Assembly (NCBI RefSeq): GCF_019649055.1
Contig: NW_026570288.1
Location: forward strand, 434,001 to 498,000
DNA length: 64,000 nt
DNA from: Paramacrobiotus metropolitanus
Lineage: Eukaryota; Tardigrada; Eutardigrada; Parachela; Macrobiotidae
Reading direction: 5' to 3'
Shown here: in pieces, positions 1-39,554 of the stretch
How the letters are laid out: each line of letters opens with the position of its first letter
How positions within the stretch are numbered: the stretch's first letter is position 1
The notes under the pieces: model-generated
Database searches by the model: none
What the model was told of the DNA's origin: nothing
Seen by the model: only the letters and a program-made list of their open reading frames with translations
Position numbers and translations under genes: made by a program

Positions 1-2
1 AG

Positions 3-143
3 TGGCGGTCGGCCTCCGTTGGCAACCCGCCACCAGGCCAGCGGCCGCAGTTGCCGCCTTCCCCGGCTCCCAATAGGAGCCCGGGTGGGTTTTCACCGGT
101 AGCTGGCGGGCCGGCCCCGGGAACATCCCAGGGAAACGGCTAA
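3..143 (+). CDS. gag: E1 Gag C-terminal tail (partial)
   Basis: The frame beginning at base 3 is open to the TAA at 141-143 and encodes a Pro/Gly-rich tail ending GTSQGNG. E2 Gag ends in the similar GNSPGNA before an equivalent TAA, which supports this being the Gag C-terminus. The capsid and zinc knuckle would lie upstream of the window. The tail contains a hairpin with stems GGCTCC/GGAGCC and loop CAATA at 65-81, the same form as the hairpins in the 3' noncoding region. Confidence 0.75.
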   Translation, partial: WRSASVGNPPPGQRPQLPPSPAPNRSPGGFSPVAGGPAPGTSQGNG

Positions 144-173
144 GGTCGATGAGCTCCGGTGACTCATTCGACC
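131..173 (+). promoter_or_regulatory. Programmed -1 ribosomal frameshift signal, E1 gag-pol
   Basis: Slippery heptamer GGGAAAC (131-137) is phased G GGA AAC in the gag frame, two codons before the gag stop. After a 6-nt spacer comes a stem-loop: GGTCGA (144-149) pairs with TCGACC (168-173) and TGAG (150-153) with CTCA (163-166), with one bulged T and loop CTCCGGTGA. A -1 slip enters the pol frame, which is open from 131. The module is almost identical in E2 at 41462-41504. Heptamer, spacer and stem match the known form of retroviral -1 signals. Confidence 0.85.
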
Positions 174-3100
174 TCCGTCATCCAGCGGAACCACCGGATA
201 AGGATAACCCTATTAACCGGATCAACCTTTCGGACACAATTCGGAATGACAACCTGGATAAAGCCTCCGCAACGGCCAGCGAAGCTGCCACAACCTTGGC
301 GGCGGGGACGGTAGCCCAACTAGGCACCGGACTTCCCCGGTTCGGAAACCCGGAGAACCGACCCGAACCTCGCAGCACCGACAATGCGGCTCCCGGACCG
401 GAAGAGGTACCCGGGGGGATCGGCCAAGGAACTTTGGTCCGATCGGCAGGAGCAAGAAATGCTCCACCCTGCCCCAGAAGAGGAGCCGGAGGGGTCGGCC
501 GAGGAACTCGGAACCGACCGGCCGGGACGAGAAGCGTCACCGAGCCGCCTGGAGGGTTCGGTACCCAATTAGGTACAATGAACCCCGGGCTTAGCGGACA
601 ACCGGGACGCCGGCCCGCAACCTCGCAGGATGCTAGAATAGCATCCGAACCGTCACCGGTAGGCCAACCGGGGAGACGGCCCGCCGAAGGGACGGAAGAT
701 CCCACCGTACGAGCAAAGACTCCGGAGGGATGGGAGTCAGTCCCATTGGAAGTACAGGCACCCGTCTACTCTCGGCCGGAGGAAGCGGACCTCTTCCAAC
801 GTCAGCCAGCAAGAACCGTAACTGGCTCACGCACGTTCTTCAATATGCAGTACAACCTATCGACGCTGCGAGAGGGAGAACCAACCATGGAAGAACGGAT
901 TAACAGCCGAATAGCCCCGGTAGAAACCGCCGAAGCACTAATGGACGGAGTAGCTAACCGACCGGAGGTGCAACACTCGGTTAACGAGGTTTCACCGAGC
1001 CGACCAGCCCCGGCTGAAGGACTTATCCGACGCAACCGAGCCTCGGATGCAGCTGGAACACTGGTTGTCTACCCACAAGACGGAGTAGACCCACTAAGAC
1101 CAGCCCAGCAACCCTCGCAACCGCCGCGCGTAGACACCAATAGTGTCCCCGGCGAATCAACCCTGATCCCGGTGGAGGTCACCATACGGGAAGTGACCTT
1201 CCAACCGCACTCGTCCACCGGACGACCGAAGGTAGTCCGGGCATGGACCCATGAAGTCCGGATTGGACCCACCACAACCATGGCAATGTTGGACACCGGA
1301 GCCGAAACATCCCTAATAGAGGAGCGTTTCTGCCGGGCCAACAACCTCAAACTTGAATCCATGGGGTGTTACACCAAAATCCTCGGTGTTGGCGGACAGG
1401 TAGCCTTTATCGTGACCCATTGCTGCACCGTACCGGTAACACTGCAAGGGTACACCAGCCCCCATACCTTCCATGTTCAACCGAACAATTCGGACGTTCC
1501 AGTCCTACTTGGATGCGACTACCTGCATTCCAAGTTTGTCCTCACCCGGGCGCCGACCCCCAATGAGGGTCAGCGGAACCCATCTTCGGGTGTAGTGCAG
1601 CCTATCCCGATACCAGAGGCATCGGGCAAGGCAACGAACACGGCTCGGATTAGTCGGATGGTTAACCCGACTATCCCCGGACCCTCGATTTGCCCGGAAT
1701 GCTCGGCCACCGAACGAAGCCTCGTAACGGAGCTGCAAGTCCACAACGCCATCGAACAGCATATGGCTAAAGTACGGACGACCCGACTGGAACCATTCAA
1801 AGGGATATTAAAGTCTATCCCGATACCAGAGGCATCGGCCTCTGGTATACTCTTACAAAGATACCGGACATGGTTCATTGGCATTCGACACCTCCTTGAG
1901 AAGAGAACGGTCGACATAGTGAATGAGCTGGGACGGGTCGGCGCAAGAACCGACGATCAGATCCGCCAAGCCAGGGAGGAATGCCAGACGGTAATCAACC
2001 TAACCGAAGCCTTAGAAGAAGAGATTATCGAATGGGAAGAGGAACGAATTGTACTCCACGCACAATTTGCGGAACATAAGCTCCCCACTCCGCCGGTACT
2101 CGAGATCCAAGCCCACGAACTGGGTCGGCGACTCTTCTGGCACTTCAGAGACCCGTACCACCTTGGTACGCTGGACACTCCTTCATTTTGGAGTAAGTTC
2201 GGTGAAAATACCCGGATAACCCGAGTCGTGCCGGACCCAGAGCCTCCTATCGAACCTTGCAACTGGCATCAGGCCAAGAAAGTGAGGCTTTGCGAGGACG
2301 TACACCCACAAGAAGGGGGTCGTCTAGCAAATACCCGGGCAAATGCCCCGGATCAGGAGTATATGGCCTTGGAGTGCCCGATCTGCCGTCAGAATAACGG
2401 ACTGATCGTCCAAGCCCTCAGAACCCGGAACGAACAAGTCTGGGAGCATGGAAGGCCACCCTCACCCGCACCTCCCGAACCAGAAAGGTGGGTAGGACCG
2501 GTTCAGGAGACCCCAAATAGGGTTACTGACGGCCTACTGGGACCTGAAGGAGACTTAGCCGACGGAGAAGCCGAAATCGACTTTGAAACCCCGGACTCGG
2601 ACGTTTCGGATGTCCAGAGCACAAGTGACTCACCGGACACCGACTCCGACAACGAACCCTCGGATCCCTCGGATGAAGAATCGTCCGACGAAGACGACGA
2701 GGATGACGACGAAGACGATAACGACATCGCCTTCGACCCGTCAGTCCGATGGGTAGGGATCTACACACCCCCGGATGGACCTCCGGAGGGTGGGTCGCCC
2801 GGTCATCAACCCTCAAAAGAAGCCAAGGAGCCTCGGAATGAAGGTTCAGGCCATCAACGGGCTGAGTTAACCGCAATTACGGTTTCTCGCCCGGCTGACA
2901 GCCAGGCAACCCCGGCTACGTCAAGCGATACCGGCCTAGACCCGGACATCGACCCTTCCGAGGATGAAACGTCGGAAGAAGGCTCGACGGACGAAGGATC
3001 CGATACGGAACGACGGGTACCGTTAACCGACGACGAACAGATTGCCCAACAGGCGACATTCGTCGGAGGTAAACCCGTTGTGTCCGGCCAAACCCTGGCA

Positions 3101-6100
3101 CCCGAGGCTCAAGCCTCGGTAAAATCGGCTAAGTCCGAAAAGACCGTGTACAACCCATGGAAAAGGGTTAAGAAGCCGAAGCCAATAGCGACGGCTAATG
3201 AACCTAACCCAACGGTCAATCGCCTTCACGTGCACACGGAGGACAAGGACGACGACCGGCAACCGGTATTCGTCGAGAATAAGTCAACACTACCTCCGTA
3301 CTCAACCTGTGCCATACTGGTACGAACTCTCAAGAACATGGATCCTAAACGAAGCATCCGGTACGAATCATTCCGGCGGAAGCATTCCGGAATTCGTCCG
3401 ATAGAAGACGACATCGAGATTCGACCAACCTGCGATACGGCTTGGATCAAGGTCCAGAACGCGACCGAGTACAGCCAGACACTTCGCAGAGGTGCCAAGA
3501 TCGGTTACATGCACTACTCGGATACCTACGAGTACGAATTCGACAACGAAGGCATCGAATGGGAGATTCCCATGGGAGTTGCCCGGGTCGAAAAGCATGG
3601 AGACCGACCATACAACCTTCCGAAAGCGACACAATATGACGCTACTACGGTTCGGACCCAACAGAAGGTTGAGCTACCACCCCGGGCGGTTGTGGAAGTC
3701 ACGGTAACCATCGACCTGGAGGTGGACACCAGCAAACATCAGTACCTCATGTACCTCGGCTCGGAGGAAGCCTTAGCGGAGGGCATCGAGATGAAGGATG
3801 GTCCAACCCCACACGACGGGAAGAAGTTCACCATCCTGGTGGCCAACCATAACAATAAGGAGGTCATCATCCGGAAAGGAACCCCTATGGGCCGGATCGA
3901 GCCGTACGAACACATGACGGACGACCGGAGGGCCCGGGTCAGACTTGCCCAATTAGGCGAGGAAGACCCGGAAACCCTAGAAGAGCAGAAGAAGGCCATC
4001 AACTCCATGAAGCTCGGAGAGAACCTTACCGACGAGCAGCGACAGGTCTTAAGGGACATCGCATGGGAGTATCGACTGGTCTTCCCGACCTCGAAGCGAC
4101 CCTACGGTGACGTCAAGGGGGTCACCCACGTCATCGACGTCCAAGGCGCGAAGCCCATCAAGATGAATCCGACCAGAACGAGTTGGAAGGGCCGCGAATT
4201 CATCTCCAAACATGTGCAGGAGATGTTGGACCAGGGCGTAATCGAACCCTCCGACGCAGCATGGAGCTTCCCCGTGGTCTTGGCAGCCAAGAAAAACCCG
4301 GACGGCTCCGTCGGAACCCGGTTCTGCATCAACTATATCAAGTTGAATGCGGTAACCAAAAAGAACAACTACCCCCTTCCCAACCCGGACGAACTACTGG
4401 ATAAGTGCGCCGGGATGGAATTTTACGGCAAGGTGGACTGCCAGTCCGGCTTTTGGCAAATCCCAATGGATGAAGCCTCTAAGGACATGACAACCTTCGT
4501 AACCCCGGAGGGCATGTACCGCTTTAACCGGATGCCGTTCGGAGTCTGCAACGGACCTGCAACCTTCCAGATGCATGTCGATAAAATCACGGCAAAAGCC
4601 CGCAAGAAAGGTGTTTTTGCCTACATCGACGACATCATCTTCTTCGGTCGGACCTTTGACGAATTCAAGGAAGCCTTCCGAGCAACCCTGGACTGCCTAC
4701 TGGAGGCCGGGTTCACCATCAAACCCTCGAAGTGCGAGGTTGGGACGGATAAGTTACCGTTCCTCGGACATGTCCTCAGCAAGGCCGGAGTCCAGACCGA
4801 CGACGAGAAAGTAGCGGCCATCGCCCAGCACCAACCCCCGAGAACAGAACGCCAATTGCGGTCGTTCCTCGGGTTGGCCAACTATTACCGGAAATTCATC
4901 CGCAACTATGCCCAGAGGACATCGAAGATGTATGAGCTCCTTCGGAAAGCCAACTCCATCCGGACAGACTGGACGGATGAGCATACGGCGGAGTTCAATG
5001 GCATTAAGATAGCCTTGACCACAGCCCCGGTACTCGCAAAGTTCGACCCGTCCAAGAAGACGGTAATCGAGTGCGATGCCAGTGGAGCCGGGCTTGGCGC
5101 GGTGTTGTCACAAGAAGACCACCCGGTAGCCTTTGCCAGCCGAGTACTCCACGGAGCTGAAAGGAACTACGGGGTCACCGAATGGGAATGCCTAGCCGTA
5201 GTCTGGGCCGTGCAGAAGTTCAAACACTTCATTGACCATGGACCCTTCACCGTCCGAACGGACCACCGAGCCCTGCAGAACCTGATGCGCTGTGAGTCCA
5301 ATAGACCCGGCATCAACCCCCGGTTGACACGGTGGGCATTGGCTCTGCAAGGCAAGGACATTACCATCGAGTATAAACCCGGAGTCTTCTGTGACAACGC
5401 GGACGCTCTGTCTCGATGGCCGTTGGAACGACCCGACGATAACGACCCTCATGAAGAACTCGACCAAGTACCCAACTTTGAAGACTTCAAAGATGAGATC
5501 CAAGTAAGGTCTCTAAGGGTACAACGGAAGGTTCAGAAGGAATGGAGCCGAAGAAACCCGGGCCAGACCCTGGAACCCGGAGGCTTGACGGATGAGGCCA
5601 GAGTTAGGTCTCTTCGAGCGGTCGGATGGAAGCAGACCAACGGAATGCGTCGCCCAGCACCGAAGAACACCCCGCTCCCCGGATGCAAAGTCATTTCTGA
5701 CTGGAATGAACTCGCAACGGCAGACGTATGCATAATTAACGTCATCGTACCGGACGACCCGGGCTCACAAGGCGAGTCGAGGGTCGGAACCGCAAGGGTA
5801 CGAGTAACCGGAGCACCCGGACCGGAGGCTTCGGGTTCACAAGGCGAACCCGAGGAAGAAGAAGAAAAGCCGTTGGAGTCCAACAAGGAGTTACGCAGAC
5901 TGCAACTCCGGGACCCTCACCTCCGGAAACTGATTGACGAAATGGAGAACCAGGACCAGCTGGACCATAAGTCCCGGCTACTGGAACATTACCAGATGAG
6001 CGGAGGTGTACTTTACCGGCTGACCACCCACAACACCAAGCTGGAACGGCGGTTCGTGGTCTTCATGCGAAAAGGCATTATTCGGGCACTTCACGACGGA

Positions 6101-7914
6101 AAAACCGGCAACCACTTCGGCCGTGTAAAGACCCTGGAGGCAGCGAAGCTCCGGTACTACTGGGATCGGATGCTAGCCGATGTTCACGACTATGTGGACA
6201 ACTGCCCCCGGTGCACCCTGGTGAACAAGCCCCGGACCAAACCACCCGGTAAACTCCAGAAGATGGAGGTCGGTGAACCTTGGTACCGCATATATGCGGA
6301 CTTCAAGGGAGACTGCCTCGGACAGAGTCCAAGGGATACCAGTACATCGCTGTCATCACCGACCAGTTCACCAAGTTCACCGTTGCCCGAGCAACCAAGA
6401 CCAACTCTGCAAAAGAGTTCGAGAAGTTCTTTGTGGAAGATGTCGTCCTGAAGTACGGCATGCCGACCCACCTCCATACGGACCAGGGATCCCACTTTAC
6501 GGCTAAGACCTTTGCCAAAGTGGCTAAGATCTTTGGAATCCAACATACCTTTGGAACAGCCTACCACCCAGAAGGGCAAGGACAGGTTGAACGTTCCATG
6601 CAGACAATATGGGATGGAATTAGGAAGTACTGCGACGCCAAGGATGGTCACCGATGGCACCGAGCCTTACAGTACGTGGTATGCGGCATCAACCGTGCGA
6701 AACACGCGACCACCCAGTTCTCAGCCTACTACATGCTGTATGGACGTGAGATGACCATACCTCAGGACGTCATTACCGGCACCAACGCACCGGAGCAGTA
6801 CACCGATAAGGAGCAGTACATCCGAAGGATGAAGGAACGGCTCCAGAGGGCACACGACATCGCGAAAACCAACATTGATGAAGCCTTCGAGAAAAGTGCC
6901 GAAGTCTACAACAAGAAGAAGTCTGTACCAGACTTCAAGAAGAGAGACTTAGTCCTGGTGGAGTATCCCAATAAGGATCCCACCAGGAAGGAACGGTACG
7001 ATGGAGTATGGACAGTACTTAACCATCGCGGACCCAATAACCTTTGGCTCAGAAACGCCGAAACAGGAAAAGAAGACGTCGTTGCGGTGGATCGCTGTAA
7101 GCACCACCCCAGCAACAAACGCCGCCGGATAACCCGATCGTACGGCCAACGGGCCAGGGAAGCCCCGGGTAATAACGTTGCAACGGTGCAAGACCCCCAT
7201 GAGGGTCGGCCCGCTCGCAGCACCCGGGCCCGGAAGGCTGATTTAGCCGAAGAAAAGCCTGAAGGAAGGGTAAAAGACCCTCAGCAACCGGACTTAACGT
7301 CGGTGCAGGACCCCAATAAGGGTCGGCCCGGCAAACCAAGCCCGGCCGCCGAGCCTGAATCGGAGAAACCAAAGGCCAAACGAGGTCGACCGAGGAAGAA
7401 GCCTCCGTCGGACTTCGAAACACCAGCCCTGCAGGAACTGCAGAAACAGGCCATCATAGAAGATGAAGTTACGGCTCCACCGGGGCAACCGGCGGACTTA
7501 GCCAAACCAGCCGAGGCTACCCCCGATAAACCGGAGGAACCCCCTAAGAAGCCTAAGGCTACCCTGAAAAAGCTGAAGGAGCCTAAAGAACCTAAGGAAA
7601 AGCCGGCTAAGGAGAAGAAACCGGTCAAGAAGCGGGAAAAGAAGCAACCCGACACACCGGTCCCGGCTGAACCTTCAGCCACAGCAACCAGCAACCCGGC
7701 TGAGCCCCCGGCTCCGAAGCGAAAGTACGGGACGGCGAAGAAGCCTAAGCCTAAGCTCACGGCTCAGGAGGTACTTGAAGAGGCTCAAGTAGCCGAGGAC
7801 GAAGCCCACAAGGACATCCTCGGGAGAATCACCGAAGGAAGGGCTGAGCCGAAGCCGAAATCAACGAAGAAGGCCAAAACAGCAAAAACCACCACACCAC
7901 AACAATCAAAATAG
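149..7914 (+). pseudogene. pol: E1 Pol polyprotein (protease, RT, RNase H, integrase), frame-broken
   Basis: Frame 149-6451 carries a long Pro-rich N-terminus, retropepsin (LDTGAE near residue 381, VLLGCDYL near 451), an acidic Asp/Glu stretch, a beta-rich linker present in two copies, RT with YIDD at residue 1492, and RNase H (ECDASGAG, Asp near 1643; TEWE; RTDH). The integrase zinc-binding region follows (HDGKTGNH, CPRC). Compared with E2, one base is missing near 6308-6315, just after ADFKG; the rest of the integrase (TDQGSHF, EGQGQVER) is in the frame ending at 7914. The C-terminal tail is Lys/Pro-rich with an AT-hook KRGRPRKK at about 7377-7400. Expression is probably by -1 frameshifting from gag. 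The break separates the first catalytic Asp from the other two DDE residues. Confidence 0.92.
1602..1848 (+). repeat. Duplicated IPIPEAS-coding segment with hairpin (E1 pol)
   Basis: A 22-nt segment beginning CTATCCCGATACC occurs identically at 1602-1623 and 1815-1836, each encoding IPIPEAS after the protease domain. The second copy forms a perfect 11-bp hairpin, ATACCAGAGGC / GCCTCTGGTAT with loop ATCG (1823-1848). E2 has the same two 22-mers at matching places. These may be protease cleavage sites or an RNA element; neither is shown. Confidence 0.7.
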
Positions 7915-8092
7915 GGCCCATAGGGAACTTAGAATTAGTTAGGGCTTAGCTAGGAATTAGTTAAGTTAAGAATGGACCTTTGGTGTCGGAATGGAACCTC
8001 TTCAGTTGTGCATGGAACCTTCAGTTGAATTGCCTGGCTTAATCAGAATGCTAACGAGCCGTATCTCCTTATTTCAATAGCCTCCCATAACG

Positions 8093-10522
8093 ATGTCTGA
8101 CCGACGACGAGACCCTCCATCGAGTGGAAGCGGGAGCAGTAGACGCGACAACCGACGGTCACAGCCCTACCCGCTTGACCGGTCGAGCTCCCGCGCCGAG
8201 ACGCGCTCGGCTACCCAGACGCCAACCCCACAGCCTCAGCCACAGCCCCGGATGGAAGCCTATAATCCGGAGTGCCAGACGTGCCGAGCCAACAATGACT
8301 CGCCGAGGACCCGCTTACCTTGCGCGGACTGCTTGCTACGGAACCTGGACAAGCAAGCTCCGGACAATAGGGCTGACCGTCGAGAACAGGCTGTGGCCCT
8401 ATACCTTCAAGTCGTCACGGGAAACCTGAGCGCGTACCTTCACTTGGTCAGCTCTAGCCGATTCCTGGACCAGCTGCGGTCACAGGAAATACTTCACCTG
8501 TGGGACATGCAGCGTCATCGCCGGGTCCGACAGGAACCCGGATGGCGCAATACCCCACCGGTCCCAGGCAACCCTCGGCTGGTCGAAGCCCGTGAAGCAC
8601 GCCGAGAAACGGAGCGCGAAGAAGAGCGAAGGGAAATAGCGGCAGCTGACCGGGAGATTGCCCGCAGACAGCGCGAGCATGAGGAGCGGATGAACCGGGA
8701 GAATATCCCACCCCCAACGGTCCCGCCCGGCAGGCTCGCAGTGGAACCCAAAAGGTTCCCGGACGAGCCTACCGCACCCTTCACCGCACTCAGTAACGTA
8801 TTAAACGCGGAAGGTGGCATGGATATGTCGGTGGTCGCCGACGCACTCGTCGCGAATTCGATTCCCCTTCAAGGAGCCACCGTGGCACTTATTGGACCAG
8901 ATGGCCGGCAATATATGGCCCAGATCATCCACCCACCACCACAACCGCAAGCCTCTGCGGCAATACCGCAAGCTCAACCGGAACAGCAGCCGGTAGCCCC
9001 GCAAGTGAGTGGCTTACTTCAACCCCCGGCTCAACCGGTAGTTCGCTCGGCTGATCAGCCAGGGACGGTGGCAGTGACCCCAACAGGGTCCACCCCGTCC
9101 AACCGAAGAAGTCAGAACATAGCGGACCTGACCCCCGGCGACTTACGTCACCGGCTGGAGGGCGACTTGCGTCGGAAGCTGGAGAGCCAGAATAGGGCTA
9201 CCACCGGCCTTCCCCCGGTTGACCGAGCCTCGAAGGATCGAACCCGACCTTCTCCCGGCAAACGATCCGGATCAGAAGATAACGGAGGGTTAGTAGTGGA
9301 CTCTAACACTAAGTCCCGCCGAAACTTCACGCAACCTGCGACCCGACACCCGGCACCGACCTCGAGACCGGACCCACAAGTGATGGCCCCGGACGAGTTG
9401 CCGGTGCCCCAGTACCCGATATTGGAAGTCGAGGTGCCAGGCCAGCATGACCCTCGGTACGACCATGCACGCCGACAGGGCATCGCGGTCGAGGCCCCAC
9501 ATCCGACAGAACGGACGGATTACGTCATGGCCACCATGCGGTACCGAGAGGATCGTCGGACCCAAGTCTGGAATATGATGAACGGTCTACGGCAGTTCCT
9601 CAATAACTCGGGTTACCAGCAGATGTTCGAACATCGTCAGTGGTCGGAAGACTTCCAGATGATTGACCGCTTAGCGTACGGCATCGGCTTTCCGCACTTT
9701 CGGAACAACGGCCTGCCTAGCGCCACCGACCCGGCCACCTTAGCCACATCATTGGATCGACCCGATTGGTCTCAGCTGAGTCAACTCCCGATCTATTCGG
9801 ACGGACGCGAGATCACGGATCATACAGAATGGGTTGCGCAGTTTGTACTGCCAGAGGCACAAGCAGCCATGGTAGTCACCGCAGCCCGAGCATCCCGGAA
9901 CATCCCCGAGTACCTTGGAGCCGCGGAACCACAGGCCCAAGGAGATGCCCCAATGGCCTTCCTGACGGCTCAGCGACTGATCTTCGCGGCCCGGCTTGGT
10001 CATCATCACAGCCACTACACCCTGTACTGCGCGTACCGGAATAACAACATTCCGCCCCGGCTGCGAACCACGGTAGCCCTGCTCAGCACACCGATGCGGG
10101 ACGCAGTAGTCGGATTGTGGCTTCGGGACTTCCTCATGACGGCAGAACGCTGGAAGAAGGAGTACCAGTACTACCCGGACGAGAAAAACGACACCGACGA
10201 GGCTTCGACCCTCGCGGAATGGTGCAGATGCAACCGTCACCTGCCGCCAGGGTTCACATCGCCACCGATGCCCGAAGGCAAGTCATACTATCGGTATGAC
10301 ATGTGGCCCGGATCATCATCATCCGGCCGAAATCGCCGCCGTCGGGAAGCCCGCCGCGTGAAGGCCGGAAAACCAGGTCAGGAGACCCCGGATCCCCAAT
10401 CGACCTGCACCCAGGAGGCTGAATCCTCAAACCAGCCGAATCAACGCGGCCCGGATAAGGACGACGACTCGGAAGGATCCCACTTCGGTGGTGGAGCCCC
10501 GGTCGTCGGGGACTTAGAATGA
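8093..10522 (+). CDS. E1 third ORF, unknown 809-aa protein
   Basis: Intact ORF with ATG at 8093, 178 nt after pol, ending at 10522. I do not recognise the family. Visible parts: Ser/Arg- and Pro-rich N-terminus; a CQTC-X12-CADC zinc-finger-like motif (residues ~60-80); a charged Arg/Glu region (~165-205) likely to be helical or coiled coil; a Pro/Gln-rich linker; and a helical C-terminal half (~480-740) ending in a basic and then an acidic tail. There is no signal peptide or membrane span, so an envelope protein is unlikely despite the env-like position. E2 has no equivalent after pol. A CAACA-loop hairpin lies inside it at 9076-9090. The long open frame in an otherwise damaged element suggests the gene was maintained until recently; mode of expression is unknown. 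Confidence 0.8.
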   Translation: MSDRRRDPPSSGSGSSRRDNRRSQPYPLDRSSSRAETRSATQTPTPQPQPQPRMEAYNPECQTCRANNDSPRTRLPCADCLLRNLDKQAPDNRADRREQAVALYLQVVTGNLSAYLHLVSSSRFLDQLRSQEILHLWDMQRHRRVRQEPGWRNTPPVPGNPRLVEAREARRETEREEERREIAAADREIARRQREHEERMNRENIPPPTVPPGRLAVEPKRFPDEPTAPFTALSNVLNAEGGMDMSVVADALVANSIPLQGATVALIGPDGRQYMAQIIHPPPQPQASAAIPQAQPEQQPVAPQVSGLLQPPAQPVVRSADQPGTVAVTPTGSTPSNRRSQNIADLTPGDLRHRLEGDLRRKLESQNRATTGLPPVDRASKDRTRPSPGKRSGSEDNGGLVVDSNTKSRRNFTQPATRHPAPTSRPDPQVMAPDELPVPQYPILEVEVPGQHDPRYDHARRQGIAVEAPHPTERTDYVMATMRYREDRRTQVWNMMNGLRQFLNNSGYQQMFEHRQWSEDFQMIDRLAYGIGFPHFRNNGLPSATDPATLATSLDRPDWSQLSQLPIYSDGREITDHTEWVAQFVLPEAQAAMVVTAARASRNIPEYLGAAEPQAQGDAPMAFLTAQRLIFAARLGHHHSHYTLYCAYRNNNIPPRLRTTVALLSTPMRDAVVGLWLRDFLMTAERWKKEYQYYPDEKNDTDEASTLAEWCRCNRHLPPGFTSPPMPEGKSYYRYDMWPGSSSSGRNRRRREARRVKAGKPGQETPDPQSTCTQEAESSNQPNQRGPDKDDDSEGSHFGGGAPVVGDLE

Positions 10523-10539
10523 AAAAGACCGGTAGCCAG

Positions 10540-13500
10540 ACCCCAATAGGGTTAGGCTTACCGTTAAAACCGGTCGAAGGGACATGACGACGGCCCCAAT
10601 AGGGCCGTAGACGAACTTTACCCGGATAAAACCTGAAGAATCCCCCGGATCGCGGGGCAACCACATCTGCTACCCATACGGACCCTCAATAAGGGATACG
10701 TAGGGTTAGCCCATCCCTGTACTAAGCCTAAAACGAACCCTACGGAACGGATCCCCCGGATTGACCCGGCAATTACGGGTGCAGCCGCCGGAACTCCAGT
10801 GCTCGCACCGTACCGGTACGTCCTCCGCGGTTTCCTCCGGACAGAATCCGTCAGAAGGCTCGGATCCTCCGGCATTAAACCCTTTCGGCGCAGATCGCGT
10901 CCCTAACCACATCCGCTACCAACATCGCAGATCGCGACTTGAACCATAATCTGCTACCATCATCGGCCCAGAACGGAGCCTTCAGCTTAAGTCCGCAGAC
11001 CGCGGCATCTAACCACTTCTGCTACCGAAGAACATCACAGAGGTCGGCCACAAGTACGGCCGTCCGTGGGTATCTCAGCGAAGAATCTGCAGACTGCAGC
11101 CATAACCACGATCTAGCTACTAGCTGGACCCTCAATAAGGGATACAGCTCAGCTAGAAGCCCCGCAGATCGCCGGTAATCCTTGTCCAACCTGCAGACCG
11201 CAGTCCTCGACCCCGCCCAAGTTAGCCGGGTCAGAACTACGATCACGCTACGGAAGGAACAGACCGTTCAATACCTATCCGGACCCTTGAAGGCTCCGGA
11301 GTAGAGGCCCAATAGGCCTCCACCTATGGATGAAATTCTAAGTTCCGTCCTCTAGATGCGGGGAGCAACATTACCTACATCTGGGGAACGGAAATACCAG
11401 AGGAACCTCGGAAGAAGGATCACGGCATCTCGGGAAGACATACCACCTTAAATGCCTCGGTCCAAGAAACAGAGTCCAAAGAAGTGGACCTGACTGGACC
11501 TTAGACCCGTGAAACGTCGGATAGCTACCCCGTGAACCCAATAGGTTCCGTGGAAAGCACTCAAACGGGCTTGGAAACGCGGATGTGGACCGAAGAGTGG
11601 CATCCACATCGGCGTTTCCCGGAGTGAGGCGTCGACTCGGACTCCCACCATCCAGCGGCACCGCCCAGGGGCAAATACCTTTCTTGAGAACCCAATAGGT
11701 TCCGAGATAGGCGCCCAACAGGCCGCCAGTAGACGTTCGAAACCCTATCCCCCGTGGACGATCCGGGCAGAACTGAGACCTCGTCGTCTGCGAGCGATAA
11801 CCCGAGTGAACCCTCGGCCACGCCGGACTGGACTCAGCAAGCACGTTGCTTGGACGGCTCAGCGTGACCACTGATAGACGGCAGGGTCACGGTGCTTGTG
11901 GAAGAGAAGCCTCCTAAAACACCGTGGTCCGACGACCCTTCGTACGAAAGGCGAGAAGCCCGGGATGTCGAACGAGACACGTTCAGCATTCCCGGCTTCT
12001 CACTACGGCAGAAAGGCCCGAGACCCTCGGATGGATCCCTCGGATGAACCCGATAAGTACGTGTTCAACCTGAATGAACCGTACCGGACGTTCCCCCTGG
12101 TTTCCCCTGGCTGAACCGGACAGAATGTTTCGGTCACCGGCGACAATGACAGGAGGCTAACCGAGCCAATAAGCGAGGGTACGCAACGTCACTGATGGAG
12201 CCTAGATATGTGACGGTTTAGCTGGCTTCAGCTGAATCAGCGACTCCGCCACCGTCGAACACTTCGGCAGAGCCTGTGGAGGACAAACCATAGAAATGCC
12301 CCGGACCATGACATCAACCATGGATCGGTCATCGACCTAGGGAGCTGTCCCCAATAGGGACACCCCGACGTCAGAACCCCCGGATTGGAAGAGTGGAATA
12401 GCCACAAATCGCGGTCTAAACCACGAATCTGCTACGTCAACGGGACGAATCGCACGAAAAATGGCCGTCCGACAGCGAACCGTGCCAAACACGACTCGCT
12501 ATCGGCCAGCCATTCCGGCAGAAGGATCCCGGCGAACCAGTCCTCTAACTTGGACTTCGGAGCCCAACAGGCTCCCACCCATCCAATCCAGCCCGGACTT
12601 CTACAGCAAAAGGAAGCCTTAAAAACCTCTACCGATGAAGCCTGGGTGATAACCCATCCTCACGGGATTCATCGTACGAATAGCGGCTGGACAAGCACAA
12701 CTGCGCACAACACAGTTGTCCATGTTCAGGCCCCTCCGGCAGAAGGATCCCGGTGGGACAGGTCCCATACCTTTGACCACGGAGCCCAATAGGCTCTCAC
12801 CCATTACCGGAATGCGGGCCACGGGAGCTAGGGAAGCAACTCCTCCTTAACCCCGGCCCCGCAGGACTTACCCTTAGACCCTACCAGCCCGTACCTTGTC
12901 AGCCTAGGAAGCAATAAGCCCTATACTGATGAAGTCCAGGTGAAGGCCTACCCATTGGACCCTTCGTACGAAAGAAGGTTATCCAGAGGCTCCCAGCGCA
13001 GTCTGCTGGGTCCCTCTGTTTAAACCCGACCGGCAGAAGGATCTTGGTGGAAAAGCGGTTCCGTAACTCGGACCGTTAGAGCCCAATAGGCTCTGCCCAC
13101 CGACCGAATGTGGACTGTGCTGGCCTGGAAGCAGAATCTCCTGACCACTCGATCCACGTGCCTCAACCCCGGACTCTAAACCAGAGAGGATCCCGCTAAC
13201 ATGCGATAGAACACGTCGTTGCCGCGTTCTACCGCATGTTTGCCAATACACCCATGGGTAACCCGGGACTTGGAGCATTAGCTGGCTGCACTTAAACCAG
13301 CGATGAGCCCAATAGGCTCTAGCGAAAGATATCGACTCCACCCGGGATCCCGCGTACGAAAAGCGACGAACCATTGTGGAGGAGGGTAACCCGCTCCGCT
13401 CCAATGGCTCGTCCCTCCGGCAGAAGGACTCCGGACTACGGAAGACGACCGTTACGCAGACCGCGTTAACCACGATCTCTACCTCGATGCTGCTTGCAGA

Positions 13501-15905
13501 GACCCAATAGGTCCCTAGCATAGCTCAGCAGCTCGCGGAGAACCACGATCTCTACCTGTACGGTACCAGTAGAGGCCCAATAGGCCTCCAGCCCGGAGAA
13601 ACCCCCTTCGGAACGGATGGATCGGGACATTAGAGCACATCGATACCATTGCTCCGATCCAAAGGATCGGACTCATGGTATTGGTGACCGGCATGACCAT
13701 TTCACCCGCGAACCGGACCATGGTCACCTCACGGAACGTGTTAGGACATTAGGGAACACGCGTATCCTTGCCCGACCTCGAGGAAGATCGAGTAATGAAA
13801 CGCGTGACCGGCATGACTACATGCCCGACGGAAGCCATGGAAGATTCCAATAACTTCGGCAGGTAGGCCCAATAGGCCTTTGCCGTGCGGACGAATTACC
13901 CTCAAGTCCCCCGGAATGGATCGGACGTAGAGCGGCGCGCCAGCGGTTCGGTGTAGAAATCCCACAACGTACTGCTTGCGGGCCACTTCGACGAGAAACC
14001 CCGGAGTATGGGAACGGAACGAGCCCAACAGGCTCTAACCGACCCCCGGAAGGATGTACAAGGACATCAGGGCACGCGGGTGAACGTGCGTTGGCAAGAC
14101 CAGCTAACGTGCATTCCTCCGCGTCCGACATGACTGTATGCCCGGAAGGAGGCTACGGATACCAGTGAAACCTGCTGGATTACCCGGATAGGATCCAGAA
14201 CGGACCTCTCGTGGAGAATCCCAAGGAACGAACCGCCCAGAACGGACGCGCTCTCCGATGACCAAGATCGGATGCTTCGATACCGGCATCCCGGGTGTTC
14301 CTGCCTAAGTAGAAGCACGGGATCAGCCGAAGGGCGGACCAGAACGGATCCCGTCTTTACAACCTTAGGGTGCCTACCTTGCGGCTTAGACCCAATTAGG
14401 TCTGATACAGCCGCAGGTAAGCCTCTTCCTGCATGCTTTTCGCTAGTCGCCCGGTGAAACACCCCGGCATTACCGACCACAGAGGTCGGACTTTCATCAG
14501 AACATGGAGTCGGACGCCAGAGGCATGTTGGGCCAGTTTCGGTTGGTTCCCAATAGGAACCCCGAAACAACAGGGGCCGACATCGGACTCCACAGCCCAG
14601 AGGCTCATTACCAGACCTGCAGGGCTCGGACCTTGCCCAGAGGCTTTACATCCCGGTAACAACCCTGTCTTCAGCGCCCAATAGGTGCTAGAGGACCATT
14701 TAAAGGGTTTTGCCCGGATGGATCCTTCACCAGACCATCACCTAAGGCTCGCCATCGGGCTTAGAGCTTGAACCCGAGGCTGCCAGTGGACTTAGAAATT
14801 TTTCCTTCGAAACCGGGGCTACCCTCGGACTCAACCCTTGGACCCCGGATTTGACGTCAGAGTCCGGCATCAACCCTACTCTCAGCGCCCAATAGGTGCT
14901 AGAGGGCTATCTAGAGGTTCTGCCCGGACCAGGTACCCAGCACATCGCGAAACCACGATCTGCCGAAGCAGCTAAGGATCCCATCGGACTCTACCTCAGT
15001 AACCGAGGCTGCGAAAAGACTTTAACTTTTTGACCGAGGTTAACCCTCATACACCGAGGCTACCCCGGATCAGACCCCTCAAGCCCGACATTAACCGGTC
15101 CAAGTTGCCCAACAGGTGACAGGACGCGAAATTACGGTTTTTGTCCGGACGAAAACCTGGAAAACGGTACTTCACCGGAAGACTCCCCTGTAAGAAGACC
15201 CAATAGGTCTTATTCCTAACCTAGAGAGGATGCCTTACGGCTTTCGCGTACTGCGACGGTGCCTCTCCATTCACCTTACCGTACGAACCCCGGCAACGGC
15301 GGTTCCATTCAACTTTAACCGGAGGATCTCCGGTCGGAAAGTGAGTTTCTTGCCCGTTTCTCACCCGGCTTACGGAGATCCATGCCTAATCCGAAGTCAT
15401 TTGGTCGGAAGTAAGTTTCAAGCCCGTTTCTTACCCGACCCTCGGTGAATTGAACCGGAAACACCGGGTATCTCGAGAACTGATGCCTCGAACCCGGATG
15501 ACCGGACATCCAGTGGACTGGAGCCCCCGTGCGTGGATTAGCTCTAGTCGGAATGAGCACCCGGACTAAAGTCCCGGACCAAAGACTTTGAGTTTACTTT
15601 TTTTTTTTACTCGGAATGATGTTCTCATTTTATTGGATCTTTTCACTAACCTGCTCACCAGGAATTGTGATGTTTTTTACTTTAACGAGAGAAGAGAGAG
15701 AGAGATTGATTAATACTATTTTTTTACTTTTCGCCGTTACGGACCATCATCAACAGAAGCCTACACCGGTCCAACTACAACACCGACCGACCTTCGGATT
15801 TCTGCCGTGAGTTGTTCCGCCACCACGGGTCCGGAGGAGAGCGCGGTGCCGGAAAGACCCACACCGGACACCCCCGAGGCGATGTCACCGACCCCAATAG
15901 GGTCG
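10540..15905 (+). repeat. Array of 24 covarying hairpins with CAATA/CAACA loops
   Basis: Hairpins at 10540-52, 10590-608, 10683-95, 11129-41, 11304-20, 11534-48, 11688-702, 11710-27, 12346-62, 12559-75, 12782-96, 13078-94, 13305-19, 13501-13, 13572-88, 13865-79, 14021-35, 14388-403, 14545-61, 14673-89, 14884-900, 15104-20, 15195-211 and 15889-905. Nineteen have loop CAATA, four CAACA, one CAATTA. Stems differ but stay paired: ACGGCCC/GGGCCGT, GAGGCC/GGCCTC, GAACC/GGTTC, TGTCCC/GGGACA, AGAGCC/GGCTCT, GGTTCC/GGAACC, AAGACC/GGTCTT, CGACCC/GGGTCG; AGCGCC/GGTGCT uses a G-U pair, and 11710-27 is imperfect. Constant loop plus compensating stems is the mark of selection on structure. Confidence 0.85.
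14517..14537 (+). repeat. Internal copy of the E1 polypurine-tract/LTR boundary
   Basis: The sequence CCAGAGGCATGTTGGGCCAG, plus one further base, is present here and again at 15967-15987, where it spans the junction of internal region and 3' LTR. It may be a second plus-strand priming site or a chance duplicate. Confidence 0.6.
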
Positions 15906-15975
15906 TGTGCGGAGCGGGCACTGGGACGGTAGGAGTCGGGTCCTTCGCAGGGGCTCGGACTCCCGCCCAGAGGCA

Positions 15976-16390
15976 TGTTGGGCCAGTCGCTATGGCAGCC
16001 TACGAGTATGGCAGCCAGCGACAGTCCCGCTTCCGGTGCATGGCTCAGTGGTGCACAATATCGCACACACTCACGCCTGCACGCACTCGCTTAGTCGACG
16101 CCGAATCACTGGCCTCGACTCCGCCTTGCCACACCTACGGCTTGACGTCTCGGCCAATCAGCGTTCGCCATTCGCTCGTGTTGGATCTGCCCAGTGCCGC
16201 ATTAGGCTTTTCTGTGTTATGGCTCGATCTGCCATTCACTTTCATTCATTAGCGTATGACTTGCTGTTTTGACATGATACTGGCCACATCGAGCCTTCAT
16301 GTGCTTTGTGTTTTGGTTCTTGTCTTATTGATTTCCTCAATAAAGCCTGGTTCTCACGCACTCGTGAGCCTTTGTTCGCCTGCTGTCACA
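15976..16390 (+). repeat. E1 3' LTR
   Basis: Begins TGTTGGGCCAG directly after CCGCCCAGAGGCA, the same boundary context as the E2 3' LTR (CCGCCCAGAGGCA then TGTCAGG). It ends ...GCTGTCACA, with a CAATAAAG polyadenylation-type signal about 50 bases before the end. Length 415 bp against 451 bp in E2. The partner LTR is outside the window, so the end point is set by analogy. Confidence 0.7.
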
Positions 16391-16778
16391 TTTACGACCT
16401 TCAAATTTTTGATATTTTTTTAATTAGTGATGTCTACAGGATCTGTGAACTCACGTATATCTTGCAGTTTGCACAGCTGCCCCGAAATGCTTAGAACTGT
16501 CCAATAACAGCATTCGCTATCTAGCTTTTGACACAGTTTGCAATTTTTTTATATTCTCAGTTCTTTCTCATGAGAAATTACTAAACGACTTGGGGGTTTT
16601 CTAAACGGCAGAAAAGCGTACGTAGGAGTACGTACTTTTACAAAGGAAGCACGGCTGAGCGGCAACACATTCTTCCTGCGAGACATCGAAAGTAATGCAC
16701 TGAACTACAAAGTCAGTGACTGCCACAAAAAAATGTTTTTTATAGCAATGAGCAAAATCAAAAATCTTTGTCATTTCA
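16391..16778. other. AT-rich flank, no feature seen
   Basis: AT-rich sequence between the E1 LTR and the stop codon of the Q/G-rich gene. It probably contains that gene's 3' untranslated region on the minus strand. Confidence 0.4.
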
Positions 16779-18451
16779 TTAACCACCAAAATTGACAAAA
16801 ACCTGCAACGGTTTTGGTTTGCCGGCTTTTTGACCAGGTTGTTGAGATGGCTGCCCGCCTCCTTGTTGGCCACCTCCTTGCTGACCACTTTGGTCAGGCT
16901 GCGACCCACCTTGGTTACCTTGTTGGCCTCCTTGTTGACCATTTTGCTGGGCTCCTTGGGGTTGTCCACCTTGCTGATATGGTTGCTGATCTTGTTGCTG
17001 CCCGGTTTGTTGGCCACCTTGAGTAGACTGCCGATTGCCTGGTTTATCACCCTGCTGGTTATTTTCCTGGCCGCTTGGTTGTTGTCCAGCTCCTTGTGGT
17101 TTGCCACTTTGACCAGTACCTTGTTGTCCGCTTTGTTGAGGAATTGGCTGACCTCCTTGGGGACGGGCGTGCATCACAGCCAATAGTGCCCTGCAACGGA
17201 GTACAAAACAGCGTCCAGTCCGATCCAAACTTAAAAAATTTTATCCGAACCCAGTCCGACTCCGAATTCTAAAAATCGTACTCCGACCAATCCGATCCGA
17301 AAATATTTTTGGCCAATCCGAACCTACTCCGATCCGATCCGAAAAATTTTCCAAAAGAATATTACTGTACTTAATTTTATTACACATCCCTACATTAAAA
17401 AATTTTTCATGCCACGTTTTTGGTAGCAAAAAGACTTCAGAATTCACAAGCACAATTTTCTTGGGCATAATAAAGGTTACGCTAGAGGATTTACATATAC
17501 AAAATTTTTTTAGGTAAATTTAGTTTTTTAGCACTATAGTGTTCTAGCAATGGGGGAGGTTAGTTATCTATCCTGACGGTCAGAAATCTGTATCAGTTTT
17601 TTTTGATGTATACGGTTCAGCCCACGGATTATCCACGTATTAGCCAGGGTCAAAAACAGGGAGAGAGAGTTAAAAGAAGGGATATTACTAAACGTCCGCA
17701 ATTAAAATGAATGGTAGTTACTGTATATGTATTTCTTAGGTTTGGTTAAACGTATATATTATTATTATTATCTTAATCTCCAGTTTTAATCCAATTACTA
17801 GTGCTGTAAATAAAACTGGGAAGCCGGTGCCTACCCTAGTGAAACTGACTGAGCCGCACAACACATGTAGTCCGTTTAACCGAAGTAGTTATACTAAAAT
17901 TATTTGATAAGACGATAACAAATGACGACATCACAACAATCGTAAAACACTCTAAATATTAAAATGTGTCCGGAGAATTAATAAAAGAAAGTGAAAGAGA
18001 ATTAACAACAGTCAAATAACAAAAGCAGAAGCTTCGGTGCAAATTAATTTAGCGCAAATGGTAGCATCGCGCGAAGCGCGAAGCTGACGAAGTTTTTTGT
18101 TTTAAAGGCGGGTGAAATTCAGTAAAAATTAATTAATAATATTTATTTAATTTCGGATTATTCGGAGTCTTGATTGCATCCGAACCCGATCCGATCAGGT
18201 GCACATAAACTCCGAAACCACTCCGACTCCGAATTTTCTAGATTGAAATCCGTCCAATCCGATCCGAAAATCGGAGTGGGTTCGGAGCGGATCGGATTTC
18301 CCAGTCCGTTGCAGGGCTCTAACAGCCAAAGTCCCTAGAACACAATATTGCATGAAGAAGTAAGAATCACGAATCATCACGTCACGTAAACATCACGAAG
18401 TGAATAACTATTTTTACCTGCGAAGACGAGGAAAATCAGTGCAGCATTCAT
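16779..18451 (-). pseudogene. Secreted Gln/Gly-rich protein, split by a hAT-like insertion
   Basis: Minus strand. Exon 1 (18451-18418) encodes MNAALIFLVFA and ends at a GGTAAAA donor; an 83-bp intron ends in CTAG; exon 2 starts at 18334. Removing the inserted element and one target duplicate makes exon 2 continue from 17175 to the stop at 16779, giving 147 codons in one frame: a signal peptide (MNAALIFLVFAGTLAVMHA) followed by low-complexity sequence of Gln, Gly, Pro and Asn, ending PLQVFVNFGG. With the insertion, translation runs into the transposon and stops near 18195. Function is unknown; such proteins can be structural, adhesive or mucus-like. Model rests on splice motifs, phase and signal peptide; no database match was possible. 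Confidence 0.72.
17184..18321. mobile_element. Non-autonomous hAT-like element, 8-bp target duplication
   Basis: 1138 bp. Left end TAGTGCCCTGCAACGGAG; reverse complement of right end TAGAGCCCTGCAACGGACTG. Perfect 8-bp duplication ACAGCCAA at 17176-17183 and 18322-18329, the size expected of hAT transposases. Both subterminal regions carry many CCGATCCGAA-type repeats in inverted orientation. No transposase ORF. It sits in exon 2 of the Q/G-rich gene. Confidence 0.88.
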
Positions 18452-27022: not shown

Positions 27023-30000
27023 CCCCCCTTCACCCAGTCCGCGGTCATTCAGTCCATGCATCCCGATCAGTCCGGTGATGAACTTGACCTTGATCCCTCC
27101 AAGCGCCTTCGTTAGCATGTCCGCTGGATTTTGATCCGTGGGAATGTAGTTCACTTCGATGGTCCCGGCCTGTGCCTCCTGGCGGATCCGGTGGTAGCGT
27201 ATTCCGACATGCTTCGATCGCTTATGGAATTCCGGATTCTTTGACAACGCAATCGCTCCTTGGTTGTCCACGTACATCTCGGTGGCTTTCGTCATGTCCA
27301 CTACCGTCGTCGTACGTTGCCGGCTGGTCCATATATATGACTTTATCCAAGTCACCGTTCACAAATGCAGTCTTCACGTCAAACTGCACCATTTCCAGGT
27401 TGCGTGCAGCAGCCACCGCTAACACACAGCGCACCAATTCGTGTCGTACGACGGGGGCAAAGGTTTCGCCATAGTCAATGCCTTGCGCTTGTGAGTAGCC
27501 GCATGCCACAAGCCGTGCTTTCCGCTTATCCAGCTCGCCATCTGGAAGTAGTTTCGATTTAAAAACCCACTTACACTTCACAGTGCGCCGGTCTGCTGGT
27601 AGCTGTTCCAAAGTCCAAGTGCCCGTTTTATGCAGCGCTTCAAGCTCAGCATCCATTGCTTGCTTCCACAGGTGCCCGTCTGCTCTCGACAGCGCATCCT
27701 GGACATCAACTGGATCTGCGGCCGTGGCCATTGCGCTCAACGCAGCTCCCTTGGCTCTGGTTTCCATGGGATGCGGAAGAGGCGGATCCTTCACCAGATT
27801 CTTCGATCCCGGTGGTCGCCCTGGCCGTCGCTTCTCAACTGCTGCCTTTTCTACAGCAATCTCGCTTCCCGGCTCATCCTCCGCATCTTCCCACTCTTCA
27901 TCATCATCCCGCTCGTTCTCATCCCCCCTTGAGGCAGGATACCGTAGAGCAACTTCGGGAATCTCGTCGCCACCATCTGCGACAACCACATCTCCAACCC
28001 GCTCCACCTTTTTCGTTTCCCGGTTGAACACCCGGAGCACTTTTGTGGTATCCCAATCGTAACCTACAAACAGTGTTTTTACCGACTTGGGATCCAGCTT
28101 CCGTCTCTGATCCTCCGGAACTTTCACGTAGGCAGTTGATCCGAACACCCGCAGGTGGTCAACTGTTGGCTTCCGGCGGTGCCACAATTCATACGGAGTG
28201 ATTTCCAGCTTTCCCCGATTTGGCACAATGTTCCGTAGGTAGGCGGCGGTTGAGATGGCTTCACTCCATAGGAGATTTCTCTCACTTTTTGTGATGTCCG
28301 CATCGTAGAGCAGCGTTCGCGCACTGTCACAGAGCGTGCAGTTTTCCCGTTCTGCCATGCCGTTTGCTTGCTTCACGTAAGCCGGACTTCTTTCGTGCTT
28401 TATCCCTCTGTTCTGAAACAGCGTTTCAACCTCCTGGTTGATGTATTCAGTCCCGTTGTCCGTGCGAATCGACAACACCTTTCTACCAGTTTCCCTTTCT
28501 GCTGTGATAATCAGCTCTTTGAATGCATTACCCACAGAGTGCTTACTTGGTAGAGTTCGAACCATTCTGTATCCGCTGCTTTCATCTTTGAACGCTAAGA
28601 GATACCGATGTCCTTCCCAGGAGTCGGCGCCCATATGACACACATCACTATGAAACCGCTCACCTGGTAGGCACTCCCTTCCAGCACTGCTGTCATGGGT
28701 GTTAGCCGTTTGCTTTCCCATATGACACGCTTCACAGTCACCGCGCTTCGAGGTCACCACCTCCAGGCCGCCCACCACCTTGTTGCGGACCATGGAGCCG
28801 ACCAATGCGTCGCTGACGTGTCCAAGCCGCTGGTGCCAAATTCCCACAGGCTGCGCCTTCAGCGCATCTCCACTTGGCGGCACCACACGTATGAAAGGTC
28901 GGTACGTTGCACCGTCACCTCGCACTCCACCGAGGAACGCCTTGCCATCTTTGCTGATTGTCATCTTTCCTTTAGCGTGGGAAAATGCGAATCCCTTTCG
29001 CTCCAATGTCACCGTGGACAGCAGCGTAGTGTCGCATGCATCAGGTGCATAGTACACATTTTTCCATTCCGCTTCCCGCCACTGCTTTCCGTCGACGGAC
29101 ATCTCGATGTCGATCGTGCCAATATGGGTGGCCTGGATACTCGCGTTGTTGCCAACCACGAACGGCTTGGGAACATCTAGCTTAACTAGAGTTTTAAACC
29201 AGGTGTACTTATTCGTGATATGGTCACTTGCCCCACTATCAGCAATGATCGCATCCGTATTTCCGGCCACATGCATAGCTGAAACCATTAAGGATTCCTT
29301 CCTGTAACCGTGACCGGACATGTCCTGTCGCTTGTTGGTGCCTGGATCCCCTTTCCGCTTTGACCAACAATCTGCTTCTTTGTGGCCCGCTTTGCCGCAG
29401 TTGTGGCAGCTTCCGGTGAACTTCTTCTTCGCTCCAGTTGGTAGCCGCTTACCTTTTGCGTACAGCGACTCACCAGCTGGACTGGACCCGCTTCCTTCTC
29501 CCTGTCCCTTCATCATCTTTTCCGCTAGGAGCAGCTTCTCCCGGAACTTGGACATCTCAGGATTAGGACCGGCCATCATGTTCCACGACGAAACAAATGA
29601 GGCGTACTGTTTGGGCAAGCTGGCCAGCGTCTTACCGATCAACCAGGTGTCGGTAACCTTTTCCGGCTTCCCGCACGCGTCTATCTTTGCCGCTAGAACA
29701 TACAATGATGCCATGAATGTATTTGCGTCGTCTACCTCCTTCCACTTGACTTCGAAAAATTCGGTCATCGCCGACATCAAGTCGTTGTCAGTCTTCGGCT
29801 CTTTCAGCTCCTGGATCCTCTTCAGAATCTCAGCGGACGTCTTGCAGTCCCGACACTGACTGAAGGTGGTATCATCCACAGTCGCACGCAATATACTTCT
29901 GGCTTTTCCATCGGCAGCTATCCACTTCAGGTGGTGCTCATGCGCCGCTTTATCCGTTGCCGAATCTAGGGGCATCGTCAATGTCCCATTCACAACAGAC

Positions 30001-30101: not shown

Positions 30102-30168
30102 TGTAGTATCCACACAACAATGATAAAACAACCTCAACACTGCTTAGAGACAAGCAGGTCTCATAATC

Positions 30169-36085: not shown

Positions 36086-36095
36086 TGGTAGCAGA
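36086..36095 (+). promoter_or_regulatory. E2 primer binding site (initiator tRNA-Met type)
   Basis: TGGTAGCAGA directly follows the 5' LTR and is complementary to the 3' end of eukaryotic initiator tRNA-Met (...TCTGCTACCA). Ten matching bases, no gap after the LTR. Confidence 0.8.
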
Positions 36096-39536: not shown

Positions 39537-39554
39537 TTTTCGACGCGTACAACA

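Follow-up and report, generated by a model that had tools for sequence, protein, structure and literature searches.

Why a retrotransposon should carry dozens of hairpins with one and the same loop, and what might read them, is the question raised by a 64,000-nucleotide stretch of DNA from the tardigrade Paramacrobiotus metropolitanus, referred to here as the window (C68:434001-498000 of a 169.8-Mb genome). The hairpins belong to E1, which by its sequence is a giant Ty3/gypsy-type long terminal repeat (LTR) retrotransposon that begins upstream of the window, in the stretch L039. Strand bias, compensatory evolution and constraint in coding sequence lend good, though indirect, support to the view that they act as RNA. 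The more specific explanation favored here, which is given an even chance, is that the E1 hairpins are sense-strand RNA tags read by the family's own Gag for selective packaging of a giant genome.

Hairpins were defined by a CAAYA loop (CAATA or CAACA) and a stem of at least 4 bp with G-U pairs allowed, or, in the strict form, by at least four Watson-Crick pairs. Between 10523 and 15950, 22 such hairpins were found and 23 when stems of at least 3 bp were admitted; the 24 reported for this region by the initial annotation are reached only if the hexaloop CAATTA at 14393 is added. Across the whole of E1 there are 38 CAAYA hairpins of at least 4 bp, 27 in the window and 11 upstream in L039. They are scattered along the element, the first in the leader and the last shortly before the 3' LTR, with the highest density in the 3' region. 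None was found on the antisense strand, L039 included. The strict count for 10523-15950 was 19, against a mean of 0.036 and a maximum of 1 in 1000 dinucleotide shuffles, so the expectation that shuffled sequence would not match this density stands. Among the pentaloops listed, stems of at least five Watson-Crick pairs enclose CAATA 13 times, CAACA twice and others once each, and 20 of the 24 pentaloops closed by CC/GG on stems of at least 4 bp in this region are CAATA or CAACA. The 27 window hairpins, all on the plus strand, are as follows.

65-81, plus strand: GGCTCC-CAATA-GGAGCC, within the final codons of the gag frame
1133-1147, plus strand: GACAC-CAATA-GTGTC, in pol
3042-3056, plus strand: TTGCC-CAACA-GGCGA, in pol
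8956-8970, plus strand: TGCGG-CAATA-CCGCA, loop at 8961, in ORF3
9076-9090, plus strand: GACCC-CAACA-GGGTC, in ORF3
10539-10553, plus strand: CAATA loop at 10544
10590-10608, plus strand: CAATA loop at 10597, three pairs compensatory in copies
10683-10695, plus strand: CAATA loop at 10687
11129-11141, plus strand: CAATA loop at 11133
11304-11320, plus strand: CAATA loop at 11310
11534-11548, plus strand: CAATA loop at 11539
11688-11702, plus strand: CAATA loop at 11693
12346-12362, plus strand: CAATA loop at 12352
12559-12575, plus strand: CAACA loop at 12565
12781-12797, plus strand: CAATA loop at 12787
13077-13095, plus strand: CAATA loop at 13084
13305-13319, plus strand: CAATA loop at 13310
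13501-13513, plus strand: CAATA loop at 13505, 37 nt 3' of the motif M2 described below
13572-13588, plus strand: CAATA loop at 13578, 37 nt 3' of M2
13865-13879, plus strand: CAATA loop at 13870
14021-14035, plus strand: CAACA loop at 14026, the only one of the 27 absent from the local fold
14545-14561, plus strand: CAATA loop at 14551
14673-14689, plus strand: CAATA loop at 14679
14884-14900, plus strand: CAATA loop at 14890, three pairs compensatory
15104-15120, plus strand: CAACA loop at 15110
15195-15211, plus strand: CAATA loop at 15201, only five aligned rows
15889-15905, plus strand: CGACCC-CAATA-GGGTCG, loop at 15895, without aligned copy

The copies in gag (65-81) and ORF3 (9076-9090) noted at the outset were both found, as were two looser ones on GACCC/GGGTC stems, with the hexaloop CAATAA at 7309-7324 and the heptaloop CCAATGA at 1555-1571. 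The initial description of variable but paired stems holds for the outer pairs, with 11 distinct 4-bp stems among the 22 hairpins, and fails for the two pairs next to the loop, which are nearly fixed: 20 of the 22 closing pairs are C-G and the other 2 T-A, the second pair is C-G throughout (22 of 22), and most of the 38 E1 hairpins share the element CC-CAAYA-GG. The local minimum-energy fold contains 26 of the 27 window hairpins, with a mean closing-pair probability of 0.93. Relative to shuffles, the folding energy of the sense strand of E1 has a mean z of -1.73 in the 3' region and -1.49 in the open reading frames (ORFs), compared with -1.34 and -1.17 on the antisense strand and -0.38 in host sequence. 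An Rfam scan of positions 1-17500 returned a single match up to E = 1, of sub-gathering score, at 17463-17498, outside the array.

A second recurrent motif, M2, follows the single regular expression GCAGATCGCG...AACCACGATCTGCTACC and probably forms a short helix interrupted by an internal loop. It occurs eight times in E1 (window positions 10659, 10905, 10942, 11011, 11104, 12419, 13468, and 13541), three times in the related element L070 (4184, 4660, and 4838) and three times in L072; the expression has no match in the second element of the window (E2), L071, L039, two host stretches, or the antisense strand of E1. M2 is kept between E1 and L070, unlike the hairpin loop. A hairpin of the respective family follows M2 at 26-37 nt in four of eight cases in E1 (CAATA), two of three in L070, and one of three in L072 (both CACGGAA).

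Across 33 merged segments of E1 copies (184.6 kb), 450 sense hairpins and one antisense hairpin were counted, the strand of each segment having been chosen by hairpin count, a choice that agrees by eye with the ORF3 or DNA match strand in 33 of 33. Divergence was measured for the 24 window hairpins beyond position 6000, with that at 15895 left out, and amounts to 27.0% in the flanks, 10.0% at stem sites, and 5.3% in the loops. In 2072 ungapped pair cells, 1779 were unchanged and 155 had changed yet remained paired, 81 of them on both sides. For the pooled covariation analysis, 22 of the 24 hairpins were used (two had fewer than six distinct rows), rows with more than two gaps in the hairpin were dropped, and the 3' letters were dealt out anew in 500 control shuffles. 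Alignment A1 comprised 23 of 24 prepared sequences and alignment A2 held 14 of 15 (one shortened sequence dropped). Two-sided compensatory cells numbered 48, compared with a mean of 21.3 and a maximum of 34 in the shuffles, and are spread over 14 pairs in 10 hairpins; the paired percentage of 93.8 lies above every shuffle (mean 92.2, maximum 92.7). The hairpin at 10597 is 94.4% paired (88.7% in shuffles) with nine two-sided cells (2.4), and that at 14890 is 97.6% paired (84.0%) with 15 (5.6), all four values being reached by 0 of 500 shuffles. Stem changes between copies are therefore partly compensatory, and the covariation proposed at the outset was not refuted, some measures being unremarkable (see below).

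The hairpins also lie within coding sequence, and the parts of E1 are listed here.

C68:427691-450391: whole retrotransposon E1, about 22.7 kb, from the LTR match, ORFs, and Pfam
1-15975, plus strand: part of E1 inside the window; L039, upstream, contains the 5' LTR, the leader, and the greater part of ORF1-gag
L039:5333 onward to a stop at window position 102, plus strand: ORF1-gag frame
149-7914, plus strand: pol (protease, reverse transcriptase (RT), RNase H, integrase), divided between the overlapping frames 149-6451 and 6280-7914
8093-10522, plus strand: ORF3, 809 residues, conserved in related elements
10523-15974, plus strand: 3' region, 5.4 kb, main hairpin array, before the 3' LTR
15975-16391, plus strand: 3' LTR, with TG...CA ends

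The assignment of E1 follows from its LTRs with TG...CA ends and a target-site duplication, the order of pol, and a CCHC knuckle in Gag. The two LTRs (L039:3691-4107 and window 15975-16391, 417 bp) are 99.76% identical, TTTA flanks the element at either end (read off the sequence by eye), and Pfam matches run across pol in the order protease-RT-RNase H-integrase, the protease barely at its cut-offs. The overlap that splits pol falls within the integrase part. The ORF list has no sense frame of at least 150 residues in 10523-15974. A 21-base identical copy of the 3' LTR junction (15967-15987) was noted at 14517-14537, 1.45 kb upstream.

When codons were shuffled synonymously 500 times, the 10 hairpins of ORF1-gag compared with a mean of 0.44 and a maximum of 4 (0 shuffles reach 10), the two of ORF3 with 0.07 (0 of 500), and the two of pol with 0.13 (2 of 500). 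The gag hairpins occupy all three reading frames (six, three, and one of 10), which argues against a protein repeat as their cause; the six in the commonest frame all encode the peptide P-I-G. The ORF3 hairpin at 9076-9090 diverges by 0.6% between copies, compared with 21.5% for ORF3, a value as low as this being seen in 11 of 2412 windows, its own neighbors included; its five third positions are unchanged, against an ORF3 mean of 0.368, and three of 804 runs of five are as low.

Related elements of the same genome carry hairpins with other loops. E2, with pol in overlapping frames, is a second young LTR element.

35752-51920, plus strand: element E2, LTRs 35752-36085 and 51587-51920, 334 bp, 100% identical

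In the database, the named proteins closest to E2 pol are uncharacterized pol-like proteins with the same Pfam set; E2 has no sense frame of at least 150 residues after pol and no ORF3 match among the matches listed. Its loops and those of L071 are pentaloops of the ACAAA/ACACA/ACGGA/AGAAA kind. L070 and L072, elements whose ORF3 is about 41% identical to that of E1, have the heptaloops CACAGAA/CACATAA/CACGGAA on varying stems; no CAAYA hairpin of at least 4 bp was found in L070 and none of at least 5 bp in L072. A motif-agnostic test scored the most distinct 5-bp stems per pentaloop or heptaloop (at most one mismatch), with loops of 4-7 nt and 100 shuffles for each sequence. CAANA loops came top in both pieces of E1, with 12 stems in one (shuffle maximum 4) and 10 in the other (3), AGAAA-centered loops, ACAAA included, in E2 with 10 (4) and L071 with five (2), and CACAGAA in L070 and L072 with five and six (2). 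Shuffles are also exceeded by certain related loops of 6 and 7 nt in E1 and E2 and by one 7-nt loop of L071 (two stems against one); two host stretches and a copia-like frame at 27222-30140 show no loop above shuffles. Immediately 3' of their final ORF, E2 and the ORF3 relatives also have a small cluster of G-C-closed hairpins with AGAAA/AGAAC loops, and the AGAAA pentaloop occurs once in the E1 part of the window.

48661-48709 in the window; L071:278-313; L072 (reverse) 329; L070 after ORF3: AGAAA/AGAAC-loop cluster

Genome-wide, CGACCACAGAAGTCG was found 210 times and CGACCACAAAGGTCG 186 times (control 0 each), GGCCCAATAGGCC at 106 sites (control 11), and GAGCCCAATAGGCTC at 55 sites, all 55 on contigs with E1-family matches. 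Clades were set by open-frame length among the best-scored ORF3 candidates, and copies were taken from the matches listed (to C54 and C94). Among these listed copies, six of six with frames of 713-715 residues, and none of six others, have CACAGAA on the ORF3 strand no more than 3.5 kb downstream of ORF3, and ACAAA lies downstream in five of eight other copies and in none of the six. Loop class thus follows element clade among the listed copies, with clades defined by frame length and not by a tree. One loop swap on the same stem was seen (n = 1), GACCC-CAATA-GGGTC in E1 and GACCC-CACATT-GGGTC in L071, at a homologous 3' end (65% identity, E 5e-44). Scans with fixed stems gave 14 places for GGAGCC-N5-GGCTCC (backward control 25), seven of them with CAAYA and all seven on E1-family contigs; six for GCCGACC-N5-GGTCGGC (control 10), all with ACANA; and 25 for GTCAAC-N7-GTTGAC (control 37), 20 with CAC[AG]GAA. 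As these places do not outnumber the controls, the loops of which were not read, only loop identity is informative in the three scans. The stem CCGACC-N5-GGTCGG gave 419 places against 18 in the control, many of them copies of one family site; 26 of the 50 places listed have AC[AG]NA (counted by hand), and the remaining listed loops include AACAA, AGCAA, ATAAA, ATAGA, AACCA, TTGAA/TCGAA-like loops, and one CAACA.

That families sharing one host differ in their loops suggests that the element itself encodes the reader. The Gag proteins of E1, E2, and P0121 align over a common C-terminal domain, about 90 residues long, that contains a single CCHC knuckle (spacing C-x2-C-x4-H-x4-C) and family-specific residues, and the nucleocapsid (NC) part of E1 Gag combines this zinc knuckle with an RGG stretch. 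No Pfam gag domain was found above cut-off in Gag, and a PDB search gave only four matches (E 0.19-0.36). ORF3 has no Pfam match above cut-off and no PDB match. At least 59 matches to it were found in this genome among the best-scored candidates, some being pieces of one copy. Since E2 has hairpins and no ORF3 was seen in it, Gag is the common candidate and ORF3 the less likely binder. The proposal of RNA-level sites for an element-encoded protein is strengthened by strand bias, compensatory change, the excess over synonymous shuffles, and family-specific loops, with ORF3 demoted.

Under the favored explanation, an element-encoded protein, the best candidate being the NC part of Gag, would bind the hairpins, and RNA of the same family would be gathered and condensed into particles through this binding. 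The loop, the pattern of which is observed, would mark the family and evolve together with the protein that reads it. The simplest role would then be to package and condense so long an RNA, by analogy with the dispersed packaging signals of RNA viruses (PMC6281560) and the need for a zinc finger in Ty3 (passages of PMC4974528). An extension of this idea, held tentatively and at somewhat less than an even chance, is a loop code, in which each giant family has a private loop (CAAYA, CACRNAA, or ACRNA-like) read by a matching Gag, rival RNAs are excluded, and loop and reader switch together.

Several observations weigh against this explanation. At least nine of the 22 hairpins lie inside locally duplicated blocks spaced 73-297 bp (families D4, D7, D8, and D10), so not all are independent in origin. 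Of the 293 changed pair cells, 138 are broken. The covariation shuffles ignore the relatedness of copies, so their figures are not probabilities, and some are unremarkable in any case: two-sided pairs number three at 10597 (mean 1.5, reached by 27 of 500 shuffles) and three at 14890 (2.0, 122 of 500), and pair types number six (5.3), six (6.5), and 44 when pooled (46.4). The ORF3 hairpin at 8956-8970 is not conserved in most copies, and most ORF3 copies among the matches listed carry stops. The motif-agnostic test pools ACAAA- and AGAAA-like loops. For E2, the ACRNA motif was initially picked out by eye, and the backward control of this motif likewise yielded four hairpins (three stems) against 0.17, because ACACA fits both directions. 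As a separate observation, degenerate tandem blocks of about 220-297 bp, which include a TCCGGCAGAAGGATCCCGG-like element as well as a CAAYA hairpin, lie at window 12500-13420, and the array seems to grow by segment duplication.

Among the alternatives, a host RNA-binding protein that helps the long unspliced RNA to be stabilized, exported, or translated would fit hairpins that are densest in a region resembling a long 3' untranslated region, but it is unlikely, as one host protein would not favor different loops in each family, as the hairpins are also in excess inside gag, and as the seven CAAYA loops among the 14 GGAGCC-stem places (fewer places than the 25 in the control) and the 55 GAGCCCAATAGGCTC sites all keep to E1-family contigs. 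Somewhat less probable again is a reader in ORF3 or RT/integrase, with a role in translation, dimerization, or reverse transcription instead of packaging. ORF3 is conserved in related elements, has an arginine-rich stretch in its C-terminal part (by eye), and found no scored match outside this genome in one protein database search of the 8000 candidates sharing most words; E2, however, has its hairpin set and no ORF3 was seen there. That the hairpins merely compact a long RNA, with loops as neutral passengers of segment duplication, is improbable: local duplications do account for part of the repetition and folding energy is below shuffles across E1, but the loops change least of all and recur on different stems in the gag coding sequence.

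Two further readings were rejected. The CCCAAT of the hairpins contains a CCAAT box, which would suit DNA-level sites such as CCAAT-binding protein sites, miniature inverted-repeat transposable elements, or recombination sites; this is very improbable given that 450 of 451 hairpins share one orientation relative to transcription and that stems covary, and CAACA loops break the box and other families use other loops. The strand bias led to rejection of antisense as well as DNA-level readings. The array region has a higher GC content than the surrounding host sequence, as a chance or composition artifact might require, but its probability is negligible in view of 19 hairpins where 0.036 are expected and a gag count reached by none of the synonymous shuffles; chance was rejected on dinucleotide shuffles, synonymous shuffles, and the motif-agnostic test. 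Tagging of sense-strand RNA for the family's own Gag is thus the explanation carried forward. Because this genome has several such arrays side by side with differing loops, specificity and co-evolution could be tested with short RNAs and one small protein domain, and how LTR retrotransposons select their own RNA is an open question (passages of PMC4974528). If true, the explanation would provide an evolutionary case for dispersed packaging signals and a view of how a 22-kb RNA could be handled.

Other features of the locus were noted. Similar membrane-protein-like frames (by eye) at L039:1120-2271 and window 52597-53649 bracket the area of the E1 and E2 insertions, a 60-bp minisatellite lies at 34174-34601 (7.2 copies, 93% matches), and the long minus-strand frame at 27222-30140 was called copia-like by eye, without a family search.

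Among known systems, the retroviral packaging signal psi is compact and lies near the 5' end. Gag selects RNA via cis-acting sequences in retroviruses such as mouse mammary tumor virus (PMC8096270). Unlike psi, the sites of E1 are dispersed and densest at the 3' end. Ty3 is far smaller than E1, the Gag of which likewise has one CCHC knuckle. In Ty3, packaging depends critically on the single CCHC zinc finger of NC (passages of PMC4974528 and PMC11381356), and for Ty1 and Ty3 cis-acting packaging sites are not clearly defined and scattered sites likely contribute (passages of PMC4974528). In contrast to E1, no common-loop hairpin array is described for them in the passages on encapsidation of PMC4974528 and PMC11381356. 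Burro and Ogre are giant gypsy-like LTR retrotransposons of more than 20 kb with extra coding capacity (passages of PMC6431247), traits that E1 shares; unlike them, E1 has short LTRs (~417 bp) and a hairpin-rich 3' region of 5.4 kb, no array being mentioned in the passages of PMC6431247. The open-licence literature searched yielded no common-loop hairpin array in a retrotransposon, which is weak as evidence of absence, and the words "hairpin" and "Paramacrobiotus" are absent from the main text of a paper on tardigrade repeats (PMC11071193).

The closest likeness is to the dispersed packaging signals of RNA viruses, in which many stem-loops with a short loop motif are recognized by the coat or core protein (PMC6281560; for hepatitis B virus (HBV), PMC7612645; for MS2, PMC4751978), and the biological relevance of which is still under study, e.g. 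in satellite tobacco necrosis virus 1 (PMC6475782). The loops CAAYA, CACAGAA, and ACAAA differ from the RGAG of HBV. E1 differs further in being an LTR retrotransposon with 38 near-exact loops, compensatory evolution, other loops in sister elements, and a binding step that is inferred, whereas it shares with the viral signals multiple stem-loops, a common loop motif, and variable stems on one genomic RNA.

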